Source: a virus. Taken from it: a DNA stretch of 24,767 nucleotides. The DNA is taken from positions 1-24,767 of IMG/VR virus record IMGVR_UViG_3300009126_000032. One strand, written 5' to 3'. Below, piece after piece: positions 4,312 through 24,592 of this stretch. The translations under genes and the position numbers were made by a program. The notes beneath the pieces were generated by a model. The model was not told where the DNA came from. It did not search any database and saw only the letters and a program-made list of their open reading frames with translations. Within the stretch, counting starts at the first letter, position 1. Each line of letters opens with the position of its first letter.

Positions 4312-5114
4312 TAGATTATTTCTCCTGTTGGATCATAGTTTTTAGAAAGCTTCCAATAAGTTAAAATACTATTAAACATTGCTAAATGTTTTTCATGTGA
4401 TTCTTTATCCCATATATAACAAGCAATCAAGTCTGTTTGTTTTCTATCTACAAATATAGATACTCGTTCAGGGTTATCAAAGCCTAATCCTTGTGCATAA
4501 GCTGAGAGTTGCATCGCATGGCTATCATATACTAATCGTTTAGGATTCTTACCTTCAAGATTATCTTTAGTTTTGAAGTCTACGAAGATTCCTGATTCAG
4601 AATAAAGATCTATCATACCACCATAGCCTTCATCAGCGCAGAAAGAATCTTCTGCTATCCATGTTTCATCAGGATAGTATTCATCTAAATAGTTTTTTAT
4701 TTCTTTATATGGTTTGTTTGTAGAAGTACCAAGAAATCCTTTTTCAATCATGGCGTGTATTTTTGTACCGCGTTCAGCCGCTTCCATGCCAGGTTTCTTA
4801 GCATCCTGTTTGCATCTGTAAATAAAAGATCCTTCTGACTCTTCTTCTCCTCTCTCTAATGTAAGCGCAGAATTTAAAGCCTGATTTATTTTCCAGTTCT
4901 CTAAAGATGGTTTAGCAATTAGATCCATAATAGTAGTGACAGAAGGAACTAAACCTAAAAGCCTTGCATCTCTTAAGTTAGTATTTCTTTCTTTGCCATT
5001 AACACCTATGATAGTGTACATAGGTTCTCCCTCTTGGGTGTACCAATGTCCTGATTCAGATGTATGTTTATTATATACCTGTGATTCTGATTTGTCAATT
5101 GTTTTTTTATTCAT
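4311..5114 (-). CDS. PD-(D/E)XK exonuclease, RecB/Cas4-like
   Basis: The 267-residue protein shows the RecB-family nuclease pattern in order: GTKIH (His120), GGMIDL (Asp169), IFVDFKTKD (Asp179 and Lys181 of the D-x-K core), and QLSAYAQGL (Gln202, Tyr206; the QxxxY motif). In T7-like phages this position holds the 5'-3' exonuclease (gp6) that trims recombination intermediates and degrades host DNA; here an unrelated PD-(D/E)XK enzyme probably takes that job. I chose ATG 5114 over a start five codons upstream, because GGAG lies 7 nt before it and it overlaps the upstream stop by 8 nt. No iron-sulfur cysteine cluster like that of Cas4 is visible. Confidence 0.85.
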   Translation of the reverse strand: MNKKTIDKSESQVYNKHTSESGHWYTQEGEPMYTIIGVNGKERNTNLRDARLLGLVPSVTTIMDLIAKPSLENWKINQALNSALTLERGEEESEGSFIYRCKQDAKKPGMEAAERGTKIHAMIEKGFLGTSTNKPYKEIKNYLDEYYPDETWIAEDSFCADEGYGGMIDLYSESGIFVDFKTKDNLEGKNPKRLVYDSHAMQLSAYAQGLGFDNPERVSIFVDRKQTDLIACYIWDKESHEKHLAMFNSILTYWKLSKNYDPTGEII

Positions 5115-16292: not shown

Positions 16293-16329
16293 ATTTATTA
16301 CTCCTTATATGACATGAATATTACCCTTA

Positions 16330-16358
16330 CCCTAACACAAAAATTTGTAAGCTGTCAA
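16330..16358 (-). promoter_or_regulatory. Leftward promoter of the first early unit (weak -10)
   Basis: Minus strand: perfect -35 TTGACA (16353-16358), 17-nt spacer, poor -10 TTAGGG (16330-16335) or TAGGGT one base on. The -35 and spacer are an inverted copy of those of the rightward promoter at 16456-16485, so both probably answer to the same regulator. The weak -10 suggests dependence on an activator, or escape only under certain conditions. Confidence 0.55.
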
Positions 16359-16480
16359 GTTTTTTAATTGATTTAAAATGCGCTTTGCGCCGTGTCTATT
16401 TTTAAATCATTACTTAAAAAACGTATAATTTTCGTTGCCTTGCAACTATAAATTATTGACAGCTTACTATAAATTTTTGT
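16337..16480. repeat. Inverted repeat carrying the two divergent promoters
   Basis: GTAAGCTGTCAA (16347-16358) and TTGACAGCTTAC (16456-16467) are perfect inverted copies. Beyond them ACAAAAATTT (16337-16346) and AAATTTTTGT (16471-16480) continue the match after a 3-nt insertion in the right copy. Each half contains a -35 box. Between them lies a smaller hairpin, GATTTAAAA/TTTTAAATC (16370-16378, 16400-16408), with GCGC-TTT-GCGC inside. This is a typical layout for an operator shared by divergent promoters. Confidence 0.7.
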
Positions 16481-16485
16481 ATCAT
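16456..16485 (+). promoter_or_regulatory. Rightward sigma70 promoter facing the hairpin array
   Basis: TTGACA (16456-16461), 18-nt spacer, TATCAT (16480-16485). The predicted start, about 16492, coincides with the first base of the 16491-16681 foldback. No protein gene follows before the possible 30-aa frame at 16948, so its first product is probably a structured RNA or a very long leader for terS. Confidence 0.7.
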
Positions 16486-16490
16486 GATAT

Positions 16491-16681
16491 GTTTGTCAAT
16501 TCTATCCTTAACAAATCTTCACAATTCAAATTCCCAAATGGAATTTGTAGTATTTAAATAATATCAGAAAGCGTATGCGTCCATTGCGTAGATCAGGTTC
16601 TTCTGTCTTACCGTTAAGATCTTTGCAATGGTTCTGATATTTTATTAAATACTGTGAAGAACTGTTAAGGATTTGACAAAC
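16491..16681 (+). ncRNA. 191-nt branched foldback (candidate structured RNA)
   Basis: The outer arms GTTTGTCAA (16491-16499) and TTGACAAAC (16673-16681) pair perfectly and continue through ATCCTTAACA/TGTTAAGGAT and TCTTCACA/TGTGAAGA after a 4-nt bulge in the left arm. A side hairpin CAAATTCC/GGAATTTG (16527-16534, 16540-16547) follows. An inner stem runs from AGTATTTAA...ATATCAGAA (16549-16569) to 16632-16653, then CCATTGC/GCAATGG (16581-16587, 16625-16631) and AGATC/GATCT (16590-16594, 16618-16622). No frame is present. Whether it acts as RNA or as a DNA cruciform is open. Confidence 0.6.
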
Positions 16682-16693
16682 AAATATAGAAAC

Positions 16694-16779
16694 AAAACCC
16701 TACAAAATAATAATACTTTGTAAACTTCATATCTCTCATCAACTCCAAGAACAGTTTACAAAGTATTTTGTAGGGTTTT
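16694..16779. other. 27-bp bulged hairpin
   Basis: The left arm is AAAACCCTACAAAA (16694-16707), a 6-nt insertion TAATAA (16708-16713), and TACTTTGTAAACT (16714-16726). The right arm 16753-16779 pairs with both parts without mismatch; the loop is 26 nt. A-runs and T-runs at the base (AAAACCC ... GGGTTTT) are compatible with a bidirectional terminator, but the loop and the single-sided bulge are unusual for one. Confidence 0.65.
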
Positions 16780-16791
16780 ATAACTTATAAT

Positions 16792-16903
16792 TCATCTCAA
16801 CTAGCGATTTGACTAGGCACTTCATAGTCTTGGAAGATCTTTGAAGGGATTATGCAGAACCTTCAAAGACTATGAAGTACCTAGGCAGGAGACCATAGGG
16901 GAT
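16792..16903 (+). repeat. Mirror cassette, right copy: conserved flanks around a 76-nt hairpin core
   Basis: TCATCTCAACTAGCGATTTG (16792-16811) and GGAGACCATAGGGGAT (16888-16903) are inverted copies of the flanks at 15560-15578 (one base shorter) and 15468-15483 (identical). The 76-nt core forms a 25-bp stem: CTAGGCACTTCATAGTC (16813-16829) and TTTGAAGG (16840-16847) against 16860-16884. There is one mismatch and a 10-nt bulge TTGGAAGATC (16830-16839) in the left arm. The core sequence is unrelated to that of the left copy although length and architecture match. Confidence 0.75.
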
Positions 16904-17996: not shown

Positions 17997-18183
17997 ATTC
18001 AAACCAACCGAGAAAAACTACGATAGACGCACAGGTAAGTACTCTACTACATATTATTACATGAAAGCTACATCAAAGAAAGATCTATTTGACTATTTAA
18101 ACTCAAGCAATGCGACACCAAAGAAAACACACAAAGTTTTAAAAGAGCTACAAAGACGCGGAATAAAAGTAGCATGGAGTTAA
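17983..18183 (+). CDS. Hypothetical basic protein, 66 aa
   Basis: A conserved-looking small basic protein beginning MPPIKFKPTEKNYDRRTGK, followed by TYYYMKATSKKDLFDYLNS and a basic helix (KTHKVLKELQRRGIKVAW). I recall similar MPPIKFKP-type small proteins in marine phage genomes, with no known role. It overlaps its neighbours by 14 and 10 nt. Confidence 0.7.
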   Translation: MPPIKFKPTEKNYDRRTGKYSTTYYYMKATSKKDLFDYLNSSNATPKKTHKVLKELQRRGIKVAWS

Positions 18184-18884
18184 ATCAAGAAGAACTTAAT
18201 ATACAAGTACATAGTCTTCCTGCGGCTGTGATGTTAGAGTGTCAATTGCCTGAAGAACTTATTAATGATCTAAACGAATACTTAGACGAATACAAAGAAA
18301 CAGCAGAGAAGAAATCATTGGCTGGAACACTTGTAGGTCAAATACACCAAGGCGAACAACTGCTCATGGACCACAAGCATAAAAGCTTAGAAGATTATTA
18401 TAGCTTTATAACAACAATGGGAGCAATGTATATTAATACCTTTGCAAATATAACAGGTGCAGAGTTTGATCCAATCACTGTAGACATTGATGAACTATGG
18501 TCTGTACATAGTTTCGAAGGAGATTATAATCCGATACACGATCACGGCACTAAAACAATCATGGGTATATCTACTACTTGTTGGACAATGGTTCCAGAAC
18601 AAATAGGTAAGCTCGGAGAAACAGAAAAAGGAAGTTCAGAAAACTATAGTCTTTATAATGACTCAGGTGCTTGTGACGGCTTCTTGGCTTTTACTTATGG
18701 TCGTAACGAAATAATGAACACTGAGAGATTAAGACCGCCACAATCAATTACACTACAACCTAAGATCGGTAGACAGTTAATGTTTCCGTCTTGGATGCAA
18801 CACATGGTCTATCCGTTCTTTGGTGAAGGTGAGCGAAGAACAGTCGCAGCAAATTTAAATTGCTGGAAACAAGAAGAGATATGA
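18174..18884 (+). CDS. 2OG-Fe(II) oxygenase-like protein
   Basis: The 236-residue protein resembles the putative 2OG-Fe(II) oxygenase family (PF13759/TIGR02466-like) common in marine phages. Candidate landmarks: NPIHDHGT (His122, His124) as the first metal-binding segment, and the double-stranded beta-helix end QLMFPSWMQHMVYPFFGEGERRTVAANLN, with His210 as second metal ligand and Arg221/222 as 2-oxoglutarate anchor. The first motif reads H-x-H rather than the usual H-x-D, so activity is uncertain. The N-terminal half (EELINDLNEYLDEY ... SLEDYYSFITTMGAMYINTF) is helical. The substrate cannot be read from the sequence; protein or nucleic-acid hydroxylation is possible. It sits between terS and terL and overlaps the lipoprotein gene by ATGA. 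Confidence 0.75.
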   Translation: MELNQEELNIQVHSLPAAVMLECQLPEELINDLNEYLDEYKETAEKKSLAGTLVGQIHQGEQLLMDHKHKSLEDYYSFITTMGAMYINTFANITGAEFDPITVDIDELWSVHSFEGDYNPIHDHGTKTIMGISTTCWTMVPEQIGKLGETEKGSSENYSLYNDSGACDGFLAFTYGRNEIMNTERLRPPQSITLQPKIGRQLMFPSWMQHMVYPFFGEGERRTVAANLNCWKQEEI

Positions 18885-19739: not shown

Positions 19740-21221
19740 ATGACAAAACTTACGAGAGCGAAGACAAAGCCTAAAGATCGTATAAAGAATTTAAAGAAGA
19801 GATTGGCGAACGCAGAACACAATCTCAAAAAGAAAGAGTCTAAGGTTCTAGAGACAGATAAGATACAGAAACACTTAGATGAAACAGGATCTAATGTTGC
19901 ATTCTTACCGAACGAAGGTCCGCAAACAGATTTTTTAGCGGCTCCCGAAAAGGATGTTCTGTACGGTGGAGCAGCAGGCGGTGGTAAAAGTTTTGCAATG
20001 CTTATTGATCCTCTGCGCTATTGTCACGTCAAGGCGCATAGAGCCTTAATACTAAGGCGGTCAATGCCAGAGCTACGAGAGTTAATTGATAAGTCGCGTG
20101 AACTTTATCCTAAAGCTTTTCCAGGCGCTAAGTTTCGTGAAGTCGAAAAGCTTTGGAACTTTCCAAGCGGAGCAAAGGTAGAGTTTGGATTCTTGGAACG
20201 AGATGCAGATGTATATAGATACCAAGGACAAGCATACTCTTGGATAGGTTTTGACGAGATTACGCATTTGCCGACAGAGTTCAGTTGGAATTATTTAGCC
20301 TCGCGGCTTAGAACAACTGATCCGAGCATAGAGACATATTTAAGATGCACAGCAAATCCAGGTGGAGTTGGTGCGCAATGGGTTAAAAAAAGATACGTAG
20401 AACCTTCAGAACACAATGAAACATTTAAAGGTGATGACGGTTTAACCCGAAAATTTATTCCCGCTAAGTTGATAGATAATCCATACTTAGCTGAAGACGG
20501 AGAGTACGAGAAGATGCTTCTTTCACTACCTCCAGTTCAAAGGAAACAATTACTAGAAGGTAATTGGGATATAGCAGAAGGCGCAGCTTTCGCTGAATTT
20601 GATCCTGAAATCCACGTGATTGTACCGTTTGGAATACCTGCTTGGTGGGAAAGAGTAAAGGCAATAGATTATGGATACGCATCTGAAAGCTGTTGTCTGT
20701 GGGGAGCCATAGATCCCGAAGACAAGACCATCATTATATATAGAGAATTATACAGAAAAGGTCTTACAGGGGAAGCTTTAGCAGACAATATCATCCAAAT
20801 GGAACAAGATGAAATCAAATCTATAGCAGGTGTTCTAGACACCTCTGCTTGGGCAAAGACTGGCTATACTGGTCCTACTATAGGTGAAATATTACAGCAG
20901 CGAGGTCATAAACTACGCAGAGCAGATAAAAATAGATTAGCAGGTAAAGTGCAAATACACGAGTATTTAAAACAAACGCATATAACAGGGAGACCTAGGT
21001 TGCAAGTAGTTAATACATGTGTTAATTTAATAAGGGAACTACAAAGTATCCCACTAAGTAAGACTAAGCCTGAAGACGTAGACACGAATGCATCTGATCA
21101 TGCATACGATGCGCTACGTTATATGTTAATGAGTAGACCTAGATTAGATAGTCCTTATGATAGGATGCTAGATCTAAAACGAAATATATATGAACCCGCA
21201 GACAGCGACTTTGGATATTAA
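19740..21221 (+). CDS. terL: Terminase large subunit
   Basis: The 493-residue DNA-packaging motor cuts the concatemer and pumps DNA into the prohead. ATPase: Walker A GGAAGGGKS (76-84), Walker B WIGFDE (Asp172, Glu173), and coupling motif TANPGG (205-210). RNase H-like nuclease: AIDYGYA (Asp310), GVLDTSAW (Asp367), and ASDHAYDALRYML (Asp453, Asp457), as in the Terminase_6 family. The N-terminal 50 residues are a lysine-rich coiled coil. It has its own promoter with a near-leaderless start, and the portal gene follows after 3 nt. Confidence 0.95.
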   Translation: MTKLTRAKTKPKDRIKNLKKRLANAEHNLKKKESKVLETDKIQKHLDETGSNVAFLPNEGPQTDFLAAPEKDVLYGGAAGGGKSFAMLIDPLRYCHVKAHRALILRRSMPELRELIDKSRELYPKAFPGAKFREVEKLWNFPSGAKVEFGFLERDADVYRYQGQAYSWIGFDEITHLPTEFSWNYLASRLRTTDPSIETYLRCTANPGGVGAQWVKKRYVEPSEHNETFKGDDGLTRKFIPAKLIDNPYLAEDGEYEKMLLSLPPVQRKQLLEGNWDIAEGAAFAEFDPEIHVIVPFGIPAWWERVKAIDYGYASESCCLWGAIDPEDKTIIIYRELYRKGLTGEALADNIIQMEQDEIKSIAGVLDTSAWAKTGYTGPTIGEILQQRGHKLRRADKNRLAGKVQIHEYLKQTHITGRPRLQVVNTCVNLIRELQSIPLSKTKPEDVDTNASDHAYDALRYMLMSRPRLDSPYDRMLDLKRNIYEPADSDFGY

Positions 21222-21224
21222 TAA

Positions 21225-23444
21225 ATGGCAGAACAAGATAACACACTACTAAATGCAGACAATCTTTATACGGCAGTAGAAGGCGAAGACGGCAAGGAGC
21301 TTAATCTTGAGTTTGACCAGCGTTTAAATCTGGTTGGAGTAATTCGAGATCGTTTTAAAGTTGCAGAAGATGCACGTATAACAGACGAAAAACGGTGGAT
21401 TAAGGCGTATGAGAACTATAGAGGACTCTACGGTAAGAAGATAAGATTCAGAGAATCAGAAAAATCTAGAGTCTTTGTAAAGATTACAAAAACAAAAGTG
21501 TTGGCTGCTTTTGGACAATTAGTAGATGTAGTATTTGGCACTGGTAAATTCCCTATAGGTATTACCGAAACTAAAATACCAGAAGGTGAGCGCGAACACG
21601 CACATCTAGATACAGAAAATCCTGTGCCAGGAATAGAAACTACACCAGAATTAGCCACTGAAGAGCCTACAGAAGAGCTTGTAGATAATCCATATGATGT
21701 TGGATACGCAGGCGATGGTAGAGTTTTAAAGCCTGGAGCCACTCTTGGCAAAGGTTTATTTGAAGAATCATTAGAAGACAAAGCAGAAAACGCAGGTTTA
21801 CTTGCAGAGGGTTTAGTTCCTATCCCTCAAATCCCCGAACTTTCTCCTGCTCAAATGGCAGCTAGACGAATGGAAAAGCTGATCCATGATCAAATAGAGG
21901 AATCAAGTGGTTCATCTGAAATAAGGAACGCACTTCTTGAGGCTGCTTTATTAGGAACAGGAGTTATTAAAGGACCTTTCAACTTTAATAAAACTCTTAA
22001 CCGATGGACCGATGATGAAGGAGAAAGACAATACAAGCCTTTGGAAGTGCGTGTACCTAGAATTGAATTTGTTAGTTTGTGGGATTTCTTCCCAGATCCA
22101 TCTGCTACTAATATAGAGGAATGTGAATACGCTATTCATCGACACAAGATGAATCGTTCACAGTTTAGAGCGTTAAAGAACTTACCTTATTTTGATAAGG
22201 ATGCAATTAGAGAATGCTTAATCATGGGAGCAAACTATGAAGAAAAGTATTATGAAAATCAATTGCGCGACAATGATCATACTGAAGGCGTAGAGAATAC
22301 AAATTATGAAGTCTTAGAATATTGGGGAGTAATGGATGCTCAGTCAGCAAGAGAAGCTGGTATTGAAGTCGGTGAAGATGTTGACGAGTTAGATGAATTA
22401 CAAATCAATGCGTGGATCACAGGTAATAAAGTACTACGAGTAGTAATTAATCCATTTACACCGCACCGCTTACCTTATCATTCGTTCCCATATGAACGCA
22501 ATCCTTATAACTTCTTTGGTATTGGTATCGCTGAGAATATGGATGACTCACAACAAATCATGAATGGACATGCACGTATGGCTATTGATAATCTTGCCCT
22601 GGCAGGTTCGTTGGTGTTTGATATAGACGAGTCTGCACTTGTAGGTGGACAGAGTATGGAAGTATATCCAGGAAAGATATTCCGCCGACAAGCAGGAATG
22701 CCAGGACAAGCAGTACATGGAATGAAGTTCCCGAATACCGCACAAGAAAATTTAATGATGTTTGATAAATTTAGACAACTTGCAGACGAACAAACAGGTC
22801 TACCAAGCTACAGTCACGGACAAACAGGTGTTCAAAGTATGACACGAACAGCCTCTGGTATGTCAATGTTGCTAGGTGCAGCCAGTTTAAATATTAAAAC
22901 AGTGGTTAAAAACCTAGATGATTTCTTATTAAAGCCATTAGGAGAGGCTTATTTTCAATGGAACATGCAGTTCTTTGAGGGCAGTTTAGATGTTAAAGGT
23001 GATTTAGAAGTTAGCGCTACTGGAACTAATAGCTTAATGCAGAAAGAAGTACGAAGTCAAAGACTGACTACATTCTTACAAACTGTACAAAATCCAGCTA
23101 TTGCTCCGTTTGTGAAGATCTCTAAATTGATAAGTGAACTTGCCTATAGTCTCGACCTTGATCCTGATGAAGTTTTGAATGATCAAGAAGAAGCGGCTAT
23201 CGCGGCACAAATTATAGGAATGCAAAATGCTGGACAAAACATTGGCGAAGAAGCTCAAGCCGTTGGTCAACAACCGCCAACTATGGGAGGCGCTGAAGGC
23301 GCACCTGCAGGACCTGAAGGACAAGGAGTTACAGGCACTGGTGGTGGCAACATCGGAACAGGAAATATTCCGCAGCCAGGGGAAGATCAATTTTCTGGTA
23401 CGCTTAGAGCGCTTGAAGGAACAGGTAGCGGAGGCTATCAATAG
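21225..23444 (+). CDS. Portal protein (head-tail connector)
   Basis: The 739-residue protein forms the ring through which DNA enters the head. Supporting features: position right after TerL, length typical for podovirus portals, N-terminal RDRFKVAEDARITDEKRWIKAYENYRG, the central AIHRHKMNRSQFRAL ... YEVLEYWGV ... LPYHSFPYERNPYNFFGIG ... DDSQQIMNGHARMAIDN block, and the TRTASGMSMLLGAASLNIK segment followed by LDDFLLKPLGEAYF, common in portals of marine podoviruses. Residues about 115-200 form an acidic, Pro-rich insertion, and the last 75 residues are a Gly/Pro/Gln-rich tail. That tail overlaps, in another frame, the small helical gene at 23227-23457. Confidence 0.92.
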   Translation: MAEQDNTLLNADNLYTAVEGEDGKELNLEFDQRLNLVGVIRDRFKVAEDARITDEKRWIKAYENYRGLYGKKIRFRESEKSRVFVKITKTKVLAAFGQLVDVVFGTGKFPIGITETKIPEGEREHAHLDTENPVPGIETTPELATEEPTEELVDNPYDVGYAGDGRVLKPGATLGKGLFEESLEDKAENAGLLAEGLVPIPQIPELSPAQMAARRMEKLIHDQIEESSGSSEIRNALLEAALLGTGVIKGPFNFNKTLNRWTDDEGERQYKPLEVRVPRIEFVSLWDFFPDPSATNIEECEYAIHRHKMNRSQFRALKNLPYFDKDAIRECLIMGANYEEKYYENQLRDNDHTEGVENTNYEVLEYWGVMDAQSAREAGIEVGEDVDELDELQINAWITGNKVLRVVINPFTPHRLPYHSFPYERNPYNFFGIGIAENMDDSQQIMNGHARMAIDNLALAGSLVFDIDESALVGGQSMEVYPGKIFRRQAGMPGQAVHGMKFPNTAQENLMMFDKFRQLADEQTGLPSYSHGQTGVQSMTRTASGMSMLLGAASLNIKTVVKNLDDFLLKPLGEAYFQWNMQFFEGSLDVKGDLEVSATGTNSLMQKEVRSQRLTTFLQTVQNPAIAPFVKISKLISELAYSLDLDPDEVLNDQEEAAIAAQIIGMQNAGQNIGEEAQAVGQQPPTMGGAEGAPAGPEGQGVTGTGGGNIGTGNIPQPGEDQFSGTLRALEGTGSGGYQ

Positions 23445-23457
23445 AATAGAGGAATAA
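23227..23457 (+). CDS. Small helical protein encoded inside the portal 3' end (overlapping gene)
   Basis: The 76-residue product is a clean amphipathic helical protein (LKPLVNNRQLWEALKAHLQD, LVVATSEQEIFRSQGKINFL, RLERLKEQVAEAINRIEE). It resembles small phage proteins with LW-x-AL-x-x-HL and QG-x-I-x-x-L-x-RL patterns found directly after portal genes. It overlaps the portal frame for 218 of 231 nt, in the +1 frame relative to the portal. It has AGGA 7 nt before its ATG and stops 1 nt before the next gene. The portal frame over the same DNA is a low-complexity Gly/Pro tail, as expected if the helical frame is the constrained one. I regard it as real. Confidence 0.75.
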   Translation: MLDKTLAKKLKPLVNNRQLWEALKAHLQDLKDKELQALVVATSEQEIFRSQGKINFLVRLERLKEQVAEAINRIEE

Positions 23458-23458
23458 A

Positions 23459-24592
23459 ATGGCATTATTTGGCGGTAGTTTAAAGAAATATTTAAAACAA
23501 ATCATGGCTAGAGTGAGAGCAGAGCGTGAGGAAATGATGTTACCAGTTGAAGGTTCAGGCATTAATCCTCCTCCTCCTCTGATGCCACAAACAAGCATGC
23601 CACAACGAGAGATGTACGCGGTTGGTGGCTGGGCATCTAGATTAGCAAGACAGCTTATAAAGAAACATAACAAAGATCCTAAAATTAAAAGCGCCGTACA
23701 AAAAATTAAATCTGACATTGACGATATTGATGCTGAAATAAGTGGAATGGGGGATTCTGCAAAAAAAGAAGCACAAGATAGAATGGCACCTCTTCAAGGA
23801 GATGAAACTCCTAATATTGATCCGTATCCAAATGATATACACGGACAAGATGTAAGAGAAATTATGGAGCTTTCACGAGATAAACAAGAATTAAGTCAGG
23901 CTTTAAGAGAAATAGAAATTTATGGAACAGCGCCTGAGTTTGATGAAACAGGATTTCCAATAATAAGAGAAAGAGATGTTCCTTTCTCAACAGGCGGAAG
24001 AGTTGGAAAACAAGAAGGCGGTAACGTAGACGCACAGATGACAGATATGATGGAAGAACCAACACACACAATGCCTGACGGAACTGTAATGCCAGGCGCA
24101 ACACACGAAGAATACATAGAATCAACACAACTTCCAGACGAAGAGATGGAAGAGGATTACGTAGAATTTATAATGTCTGAAGCTTTAGAGCCAGAAGAAC
24201 AACAATATCTAACAGATAGACTTGTCGAAGATGATCAACTAAGTATGATCTTTGATAAAGTTGTTGAAACGGCGTCTGAATTTTCAGGCTCTGGATCAGT
24301 AGATGGTCCAGGCACAGGAATTTCTGATTCGATACCCGCAAGGTTATCGGACGGAGAGTTTGTTATGACAGCAAAAGCAACGGATGCAATCGGAGCCGAT
24401 ACTCTTCAAGAGTTAATGTCTCTGGCTGAACAAGAAGCAGAAACTGGCAGACAAGCAAAAGCAATTGGCGGAGAAGCACAACGAAAGATAGAGACAGCCT
24501 CTTCTACTGTTATTGAGGATGATCCAATCAAACTCAAAAATAAAGAAGCTATGCGATCTTTAGATCCTCGTTTAAGCTTATTCGCTAGTTAA
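23459..24592 (+). CDS. Scaffold- or head-assembly-like structural protein, 377 aa
   Basis: The protein lies between the portal and the next head gene. An N-terminal basic helix (LKKYLKQIMARVRAEREE) is followed by a Pro-rich stretch, coiled-coil helices (SAVQKIKSDIDDIDAEIS, LSRDKQELSQALREIEIYG), a long acidic region and the motif VDGPGTGISDSIPARLSDGEFVMTAKATDAIG (281-312; shown in parts GPGTGISDSIPA and LSDGEFVM), which recurs in structural proteins of marine phages. The motif and position suggest a virion or assembly protein; scaffold is the best guess. AGAGGA lies 7 nt before the ATG. Confidence 0.7.
   Translation: MALFGGSLKKYLKQIMARVRAEREEMMLPVEGSGINPPPPLMPQTSMPQREMYAVGGWASRLARQLIKKHNKDPKIKSAVQKIKSDIDDIDAEISGMGDSAKKEAQDRMAPLQGDETPNIDPYPNDIHGQDVREIMELSRDKQELSQALREIEIYGTAPEFDETGFPIIRERDVPFSTGGRVGKQEGGNVDAQMTDMMEEPTHTMPDGTVMPGATHEEYIESTQLPDEEMEEDYVEFIMSEALEPEEQQYLTDRLVEDDQLSMIFDKVVETASEFSGSGSVDGPGTGISDSIPARLSDGEFVMTAKATDAIGADTLQELMSLAEQEAETGRQAKAIGGEAQRKIETASSTVIEDDPIKLKNKEAMRSLDPRLSLFAS

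Follow-up and report, generated by a model that had tools for sequence, protein, structure and literature searches.

A second gene within the portal gene

In a 24,767-base virus record (the window, by which we mean the whole stretch of DNA analysed), a 76-codon reading frame lies almost entirely inside the 3′ end of a portal protein gene. This raises two questions: whether the frame, here called p76, is a gene, and how one stretch of DNA came to be read in two frames. The features concerned are as follows.

19740–21221, + strand: terminase large subunit gene, the second tree marker (phrog_979, E 7e-62)
21225–23444, + strand: portal protein gene, SU10/HMO-2011-type, 739 aa (PF23899, phrog_332, full-length homologs)
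23214–23219, + strand: Shine-Dalgarno-like ATAGGA within the portal gene, 7 nt ahead of the p76 ATG (sequence, relatives)
23227–23457, + strand: p76, predicted nested gene, 76 aa, helical hairpin (open reading frame, conservation, dual-frame constraint, homology, AF2)
23227–23444, + strand: 218-nt overlap predicted to code in both frames, p76 being +1 relative to the portal
23459–24592, + strand: downstream gene, 377 aa, beginning just past the p76 stop (open reading frame, weak tape measure matches)

The phage is close to the HTVC103P-type pelagiphages. Its DNA polymerase has its best match in HTVC103P (50.6% identity), the best portal matches among named phages are HTVC115P and HTVC103P, and the host of this phage group, judged from the relatives and the low G+C, is probably SAR11. 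The portal protein scores 91.2 bits against Pfam SU10_portal (PF23899; cut-off 30), which places it in that family, matches phrog_332 with an E-value of 3e-79, and has homologs over its full length in HTVC103P, HMO-2011 and others. It has the core family in common with SU10-type portals but, unlike the remoter ones examined, carries a Gly/Pro tail with GGGNIGTG together with the nested p76. The p76 frame ends at 23457, two bases ahead of the start of the 377-aa gene, which has weak matches to tape measure families spanning about 50–105 residues.

Portal ends were collected from IMG/VR and phage records, giving 434 distinct ends. The overlap exceeds 170 nt in 212 of these (173–218 nt), invariably with p76 in frame +1; the remaining ends overlap by 61–130 nt (n = 80), 11–60 nt (n = 12) or ≤10 nt (n = 117), none of the 434 overlaps by 131–170 nt, and p76 was not found in 13. 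There is no p76 homolog within 700 nt past the portal in loci L453, L459, L494, L498, L509, L512, L517, L525 and L535, in which p76 has either moved or been lost; apart from L453 and L459, the loci without p76 were first found in a search centred on CRP-13.

Both frames are constrained

A sequence-only reading of the window had described a 76-codon frame overlapping the portal by 218 nt, with its own Shine-Dalgarno sequence, a well-formed helical product, and a Gly/Pro-rich tail in the portal frame. All of this is borne out: the coordinates (23227–23457 against 21225–23444) place p76 in the +1 frame opposite such a tail, AGG or GGA precedes the start in 211 of the 212 long-overlap loci just as ATAGGA does in the window, and AlphaFold, given 60 relatives, predicts a hairpin with helices at residues 4–15, 17–40, 44–61 and 63–72 (mean pLDDT 93.4).

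When the window overlap is recoded with the portal amino acids held fixed, the +1 frame stays open in only 1.9% of recodings, and over 60 relatives the mean is 12%. The frame is nevertheless open, and begins with ATG, in each of the 212 distinct long-overlap loci, so that the stop codons named beforehand as a sign against the gene do not occur among them. Across 152 pairs of relatives the portal synonymous difference rate, 0.361 upstream, is down to 0.121 within the overlap, the third codon position of the portal passing from the most to the least variable. Over the same pairs p76 identity is 0.729, against 0.500 expected under portal-only constraint, and lies above every portal-only simulation in 138 of the 152. 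Selection confined to the portal frame, the other sign against the gene, is thus not what is seen; the pairs, together with the homology of the tail described below, indicate purifying selection in both frames.

That p76 is a chance open frame without a product might be suspected because overlapping frames are often spurious and because the frame is unannotated in HTVC103P, HTVC115P and HTVC033P. The conservation of the frame and its ATG, the threefold drop in portal synonymous change, the p76 identity far beyond portal-only expectation, the homology to separate genes and the confident predicted fold contradict it at the level of sequence, and we regard it as scarcely credible. On these comparisons p76 is almost certainly a real dual-coding gene inside the portal gene. 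An abundant marine phage group would thereby gain a conserved, unannotated gene, located within one of its marker genes. In the literature searched we found no account of this overlap, nor of any viral overlap split by duplication.

The p76 family

Models of p76 were built, for alpha-phages and for gamma-phages, from separate or short-overlap genes only. Nested p76 proteins score 43.5 bits against the alpha-phage model (null of recoded portal tails, 3.5 ± 4.0), the window p76 itself scoring 58.1 bits, and 45.2 bits against the gamma-phage model (null 1.8 ± 3.8). The homology to the separate members spans the whole length, with the pattern LxPLVNN..W..YL...RxQG..L..L, and the gene lies directly past the portal or in the portal 3′ end. 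The p76 of the long-overlap phages is old.

A homologous protein of 63–76 aa, like that of the window, is present in HMO-2011 (AFV50589.1), CRP phages, phiM6, RHph_N3_19, MQM1 and CHOED (CHOED_090), and these genes have in common with p76 the RxQG motif (in most members), the genomic place and the helical family. They stand separate or overlap the portal by 0–98 nt, as opposed to the 218 nt of the window, and in the window the conserved tail motif of the portal lies inside p76. A separate or slightly overlapping gene is likewise found in ctYwJ313 and Slicky01. HTVC103P, HTVC104P, HTVC115P and HTVC033P have the portal type and nested p76 of the window, left unannotated by their depositors, with overlaps of 191–203 nt in HTVC103P, HTVC115P and HTVC033P; the portals of the HTVC103P-type phages and HTVC033P are about 60% identical to that of the window. 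The suggestion that proteins of this kind are usually encoded on their own, past the portal, thus holds in other lineages and fails in the window's own.

In HMO-2011 (L135) p76 is annotated from a GTG at 5105. An in-frame ATG at 5066 would give a gene at L135 5066–5281 of 71 aa with a 74-nt overlap, which fits the family length, and the annotated start is probably too late. Homologs are also unannotated in Roseobacter phage CRP-345 (L391 4431–4688) and Aeromonas phage 1233 (L148 4537–4752).

No Pfam or PHROG family matches p76; its homolog in HMO-2011 weakly matches a single PHROG, itself of unknown function. Searches of the PDB by sequence and fold returned only generic helical hairpins and no function; the fold matches are PscE/EscE-like (Z 6.6), below the level that helical bundles attain by chance. 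In a viral structure library the best matches (TM 0.86 and 0.76) are proteins of 70–76 aa, whose small size suggests that they are probably separately encoded p76 homologs. Scaffold or coat genes follow p76 in gamma-phages and StenR_269, for which reason we propose an assembly role; from gene position and shape, p76-like proteins could be small portal or head assembly factors, a suggestion we regard as evenly balanced.

More remote phages also have a p76-like gene past the portal. The gene in Rollin matches both the separated alpha-phage model (E 3e-6) and the long-overlap model (E 1e-7), neither of which was built from Rollin; those in StenR_269, Y3 and ctsTn925 match weakly. The portal tails of all four are without the tail motif, and p76 is therefore phylogenetically the wider of the two readings. 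By the principle that the wider reading is the older one (reviewed in PMC8227390), p76 is probably the older of the pair.

The portal tail in other arrangements

Two parts of the portal tail can be followed among relatives.

23253–23291, + strand: segment X, portal AQAVGQQPPTMGG over p76 LKPLVNNRQLWEA
23340–23399, + strand: segment Y core, portal GGGNIGTGNIPQPGEDQFSG over p76 VVATSEQEIFRSQGKINFLV (column map of both readings)

The Y core is conserved in separated relatives, and the core motif of the tail, GxGGGNIGTGxxPxPGExxFSG, is found ungapped in HMO-2011-type, roseobacter and rhizobium phages with a p76 homolog downstream. Against a tail model made from non-overlapping alpha-phages only, long-overlap tails score 43.5 bits, compared with −3.9 ± 4.2 for a null of recoded p76; 70 of 70 lie beyond every null (maximum 15.6 in 7000). 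The mean of 195 long-overlap tails is 42.2 bits, against 5.6 ± 3.2 for composition shuffles, and the second motif half, PxPGxxGFTGN, scores above shuffles in most gamma-phages as well. Segment X (QAVGQQPPxMGG) is the portal reading over the p76 N-terminus. In short-overlap phages the segment after the motif scores 29.1 bits against the X model (shuffles 13.1 ± 4.4), and in HMO-2011-type phages this X-matching peptide forms the portal end.

Since the p76 and tail models both score across arrangements, one DNA stretch codes for two peptides, both of which have homologs encoded separately elsewhere. The loss of a portal stop codon in the window's lineage had been suggested as the origin of the tail. 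The conservation of the tail motif in non-overlapping relatives argues against this, and no relative was found with a shorter portal ending near 23220, all 212 long-overlap portals running on. Compared in this way, the Gly/Pro tail was very probably not newly made in the window's clade. The tail predates the overlap clade as sampled, yet p76 reaches outgroups that are without the motif. The idea that a portal once ran over its neighbour accordingly fares better for some deep ancestor, with which the wider distribution of p76 is consistent, than for the window's clade.

Layout of the two readings

In the portal frame the strictest motif is GGGNIG, which falls on p76 residues V39–E44, at the turn between the two long helices. 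Here the p76 residues ATSE are conserved in 96, 76, 97 and 95% of long-overlap phages; in separated p76 proteins the same sites carry different residues and vary more, so it is probably the portal that imposes the conservation. In the p76 frame the strictest motif is RxQG, which is kept in nearly all p76 proteins of alpha-phages and lies over the portal PxPG, in which the second P is often A in long-overlap portals. The two strict motifs are thus side by side and not stacked, and the constraints are partly separate. We propose that the portal tail is a flexible, Gly/Pro-rich C-terminal extension, and that the tail motif may be a docking peptide.

Origin of the arrangements

The reading we prefer, and hold to be somewhat probable from the comparisons above, is of an ancient dual-coding overlap later split by duplication. 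In the overlapping state p76 would be translated from its own internal ATG in the portal gene, within the virion-assembly region, and the portal frame would read on across the same DNA into a flexible Gly/Pro C-terminal tail. As the older reading, p76 would have been run through by the portal frame of a common ancestor, giving rise to that tail. The window's clade and other HTVC103P- and HTVC033P-type phages would then have retained the overlap, and in HMO-2011-type, roseobacter and rhizobium phages a tandem duplication would have left one copy keeping the tail and the other p76; in the gamma-proteobacterial relatives such a split would probably have been a separate event.

The split is the simpler reading because merging two separate sequences needs one of them to converge, while duplication needs no convergence. 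In long-overlap tails segment X precedes Y, and in HMO-2011-type tails Y precedes X, an order that fits tandem duplication with partial loss, although deletion in the opposite direction gives the same order. In the terminase tree LA, LB and the separated clade stand apart from LC and the gamma-phages (SH-aLRT 100), the overlap clades LA and LB grouping with the separated clade, and a single overlap clade is rejected (AU p = 0.014). The portal tree leans slightly towards one overlap clade (support 74/67) and does not reject the terminase arrangement (p = 0.124); portal-only trees leave the clade order open, and the terminase may have its own history. The terminase row of RHph_N3_19 was left out of the concatenated tree because of its aberrant branch. 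If the gamma-phages are the outgroup, separation must have happened at least twice. In HTVC033P, an overlap phage, the DNA polymerase is closest to those of HMO-2011 and the CRP phages, which are without the long overlap. HTVC033P has been classed as HMO-2011-type by phylogenomics (PMC9038755), whereas what the HTVC103P-type phages share is mainly the morphogenesis and packaging module (PMC8528129).

Relics of a duplication were sought. The +1 frame of 116 separated tails holds no memory of p76 (2.04 vs 1.63 bits) and is open in 4.3% of separated tails, against 15% of recoded tails. Separated p76 genes, when read in the portal frame, show no tail, a small excess coming from the part that is still portal, and segment X was not found ahead of the motif in separated tails. 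None of the 434 portal ends has a convincing two-copy p76 locus; L496 was considered as one, and the 14 bits in its tail are near the 99% level of recoded nulls. The missing relics speak against the split; saturation could explain them, without itself counting in its favour.

Two other histories would derive the overlap differently. Separate genes may have been ancestral, with the old tail and its stop lost in the overlap lineage, the portal read through p76, and the motif GGGNIGTGxxPxPGExxFSG rebuilt by selection in the −1 frame of p76. Separate p76 genes do occur in gamma-phages and deeper outgroups, short-overlap HMO-2011-type portals do reach across the N-terminus of p76 in the same frame, p76 codons limit which chemical classes the portal residues opposite them can belong to and make a Gly/Pro-rich reading easy, and the portal tree gives slight preference to a single overlap clade. 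An ungapped motif of roughly 24 residues would nonetheless have to converge to the score given above (43.5 bits against −3.9 ± 4.2), and the terminase tree rejects the single overlap clade, so we consider this course unlikely. Conversely, the overlap DNA may be an old portal tail in which a new +1 frame converged on p76, the original having been lost. The tail is indeed ancestral and widely conserved, and recoded long-overlap tails reach 32 bits of p76-likeness by chance, the portal residues going partway. The whole-length homology, at 43–45 bits with the alpha and gamma models, exceeds this and extends into the N-terminal half, opposite which the portal is an unconstrained spacer, and the best viral-library matches are likewise small and probably separately encoded; we find a re-born p76 very improbable.

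Under the preferred split of an ancient overlap, the Gly/Pro tail of HMO-2011-type phages would be a frame-shifted fossil of the neighbouring p76, overprinted, long dual-coding and then freed by duplication, a proposal for and against which we find the case about equal. If it is true, one ancestral sequence survives as two unrelated-looking, adjacent protein segments, and the tail may be a case in which overprinting gave rise to new protein that was afterwards released from the overlap. Classical same-strand overprinted pairs, such as those of phiX174 and plant viruses (PMC8227390), resemble the window pair in having two constrained frames and two proteins; one frame there is usually novel and without homologs elsewhere, whereas both readings of the window have separate homologs. 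The evolution of overlaps is usually told in one direction, with an existing frame being overlaid by a novel one. As relatives encode both pieces separately, the window pair is unusually well suited as a test case: several hundred sequences carry these two protein segments, some of them jointly encoded and others apart, and allow both the origin and the dissolution of an overlap to be studied.

Other features of the window

A near-identical contig, IMGVR_UViG_3300009132_000121, has TGA in the portal gene where the window has AGA (L001 2224–2226, portal codon 76), either a variant or a sequencing error; its p76 is identical to that of the window.

Between the divergent replication and packaging modules lies a non-coding stretch (16328–16900) with several long hairpins in succession, for example 16694–16709/16764–16779 (perfect) and 16810–16836/16861–16887 (89%); their RNA fold z-scores are −4.7, −2.8, −7.1 and −3.8, and the stretch has no match in Rfam. 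The genes for the small and large terminase subunits have a 2OG-Fe(II) oxygenase gene (18174–18884) between them; HTVC033P has two oxygenase genes of this kind, placed elsewhere than in the window.

The 377-aa gene at 23459–24592 contains the motif GTGxSDSIPAxLSDGEFVxTAKA, also present in HTVC103P gp79 and HTVC115P gp72 and, in the form DDIPAQLSEGEFVMPADVV, in HMO-2011 gp49; the four proteins differ in length and in their remaining sequence.
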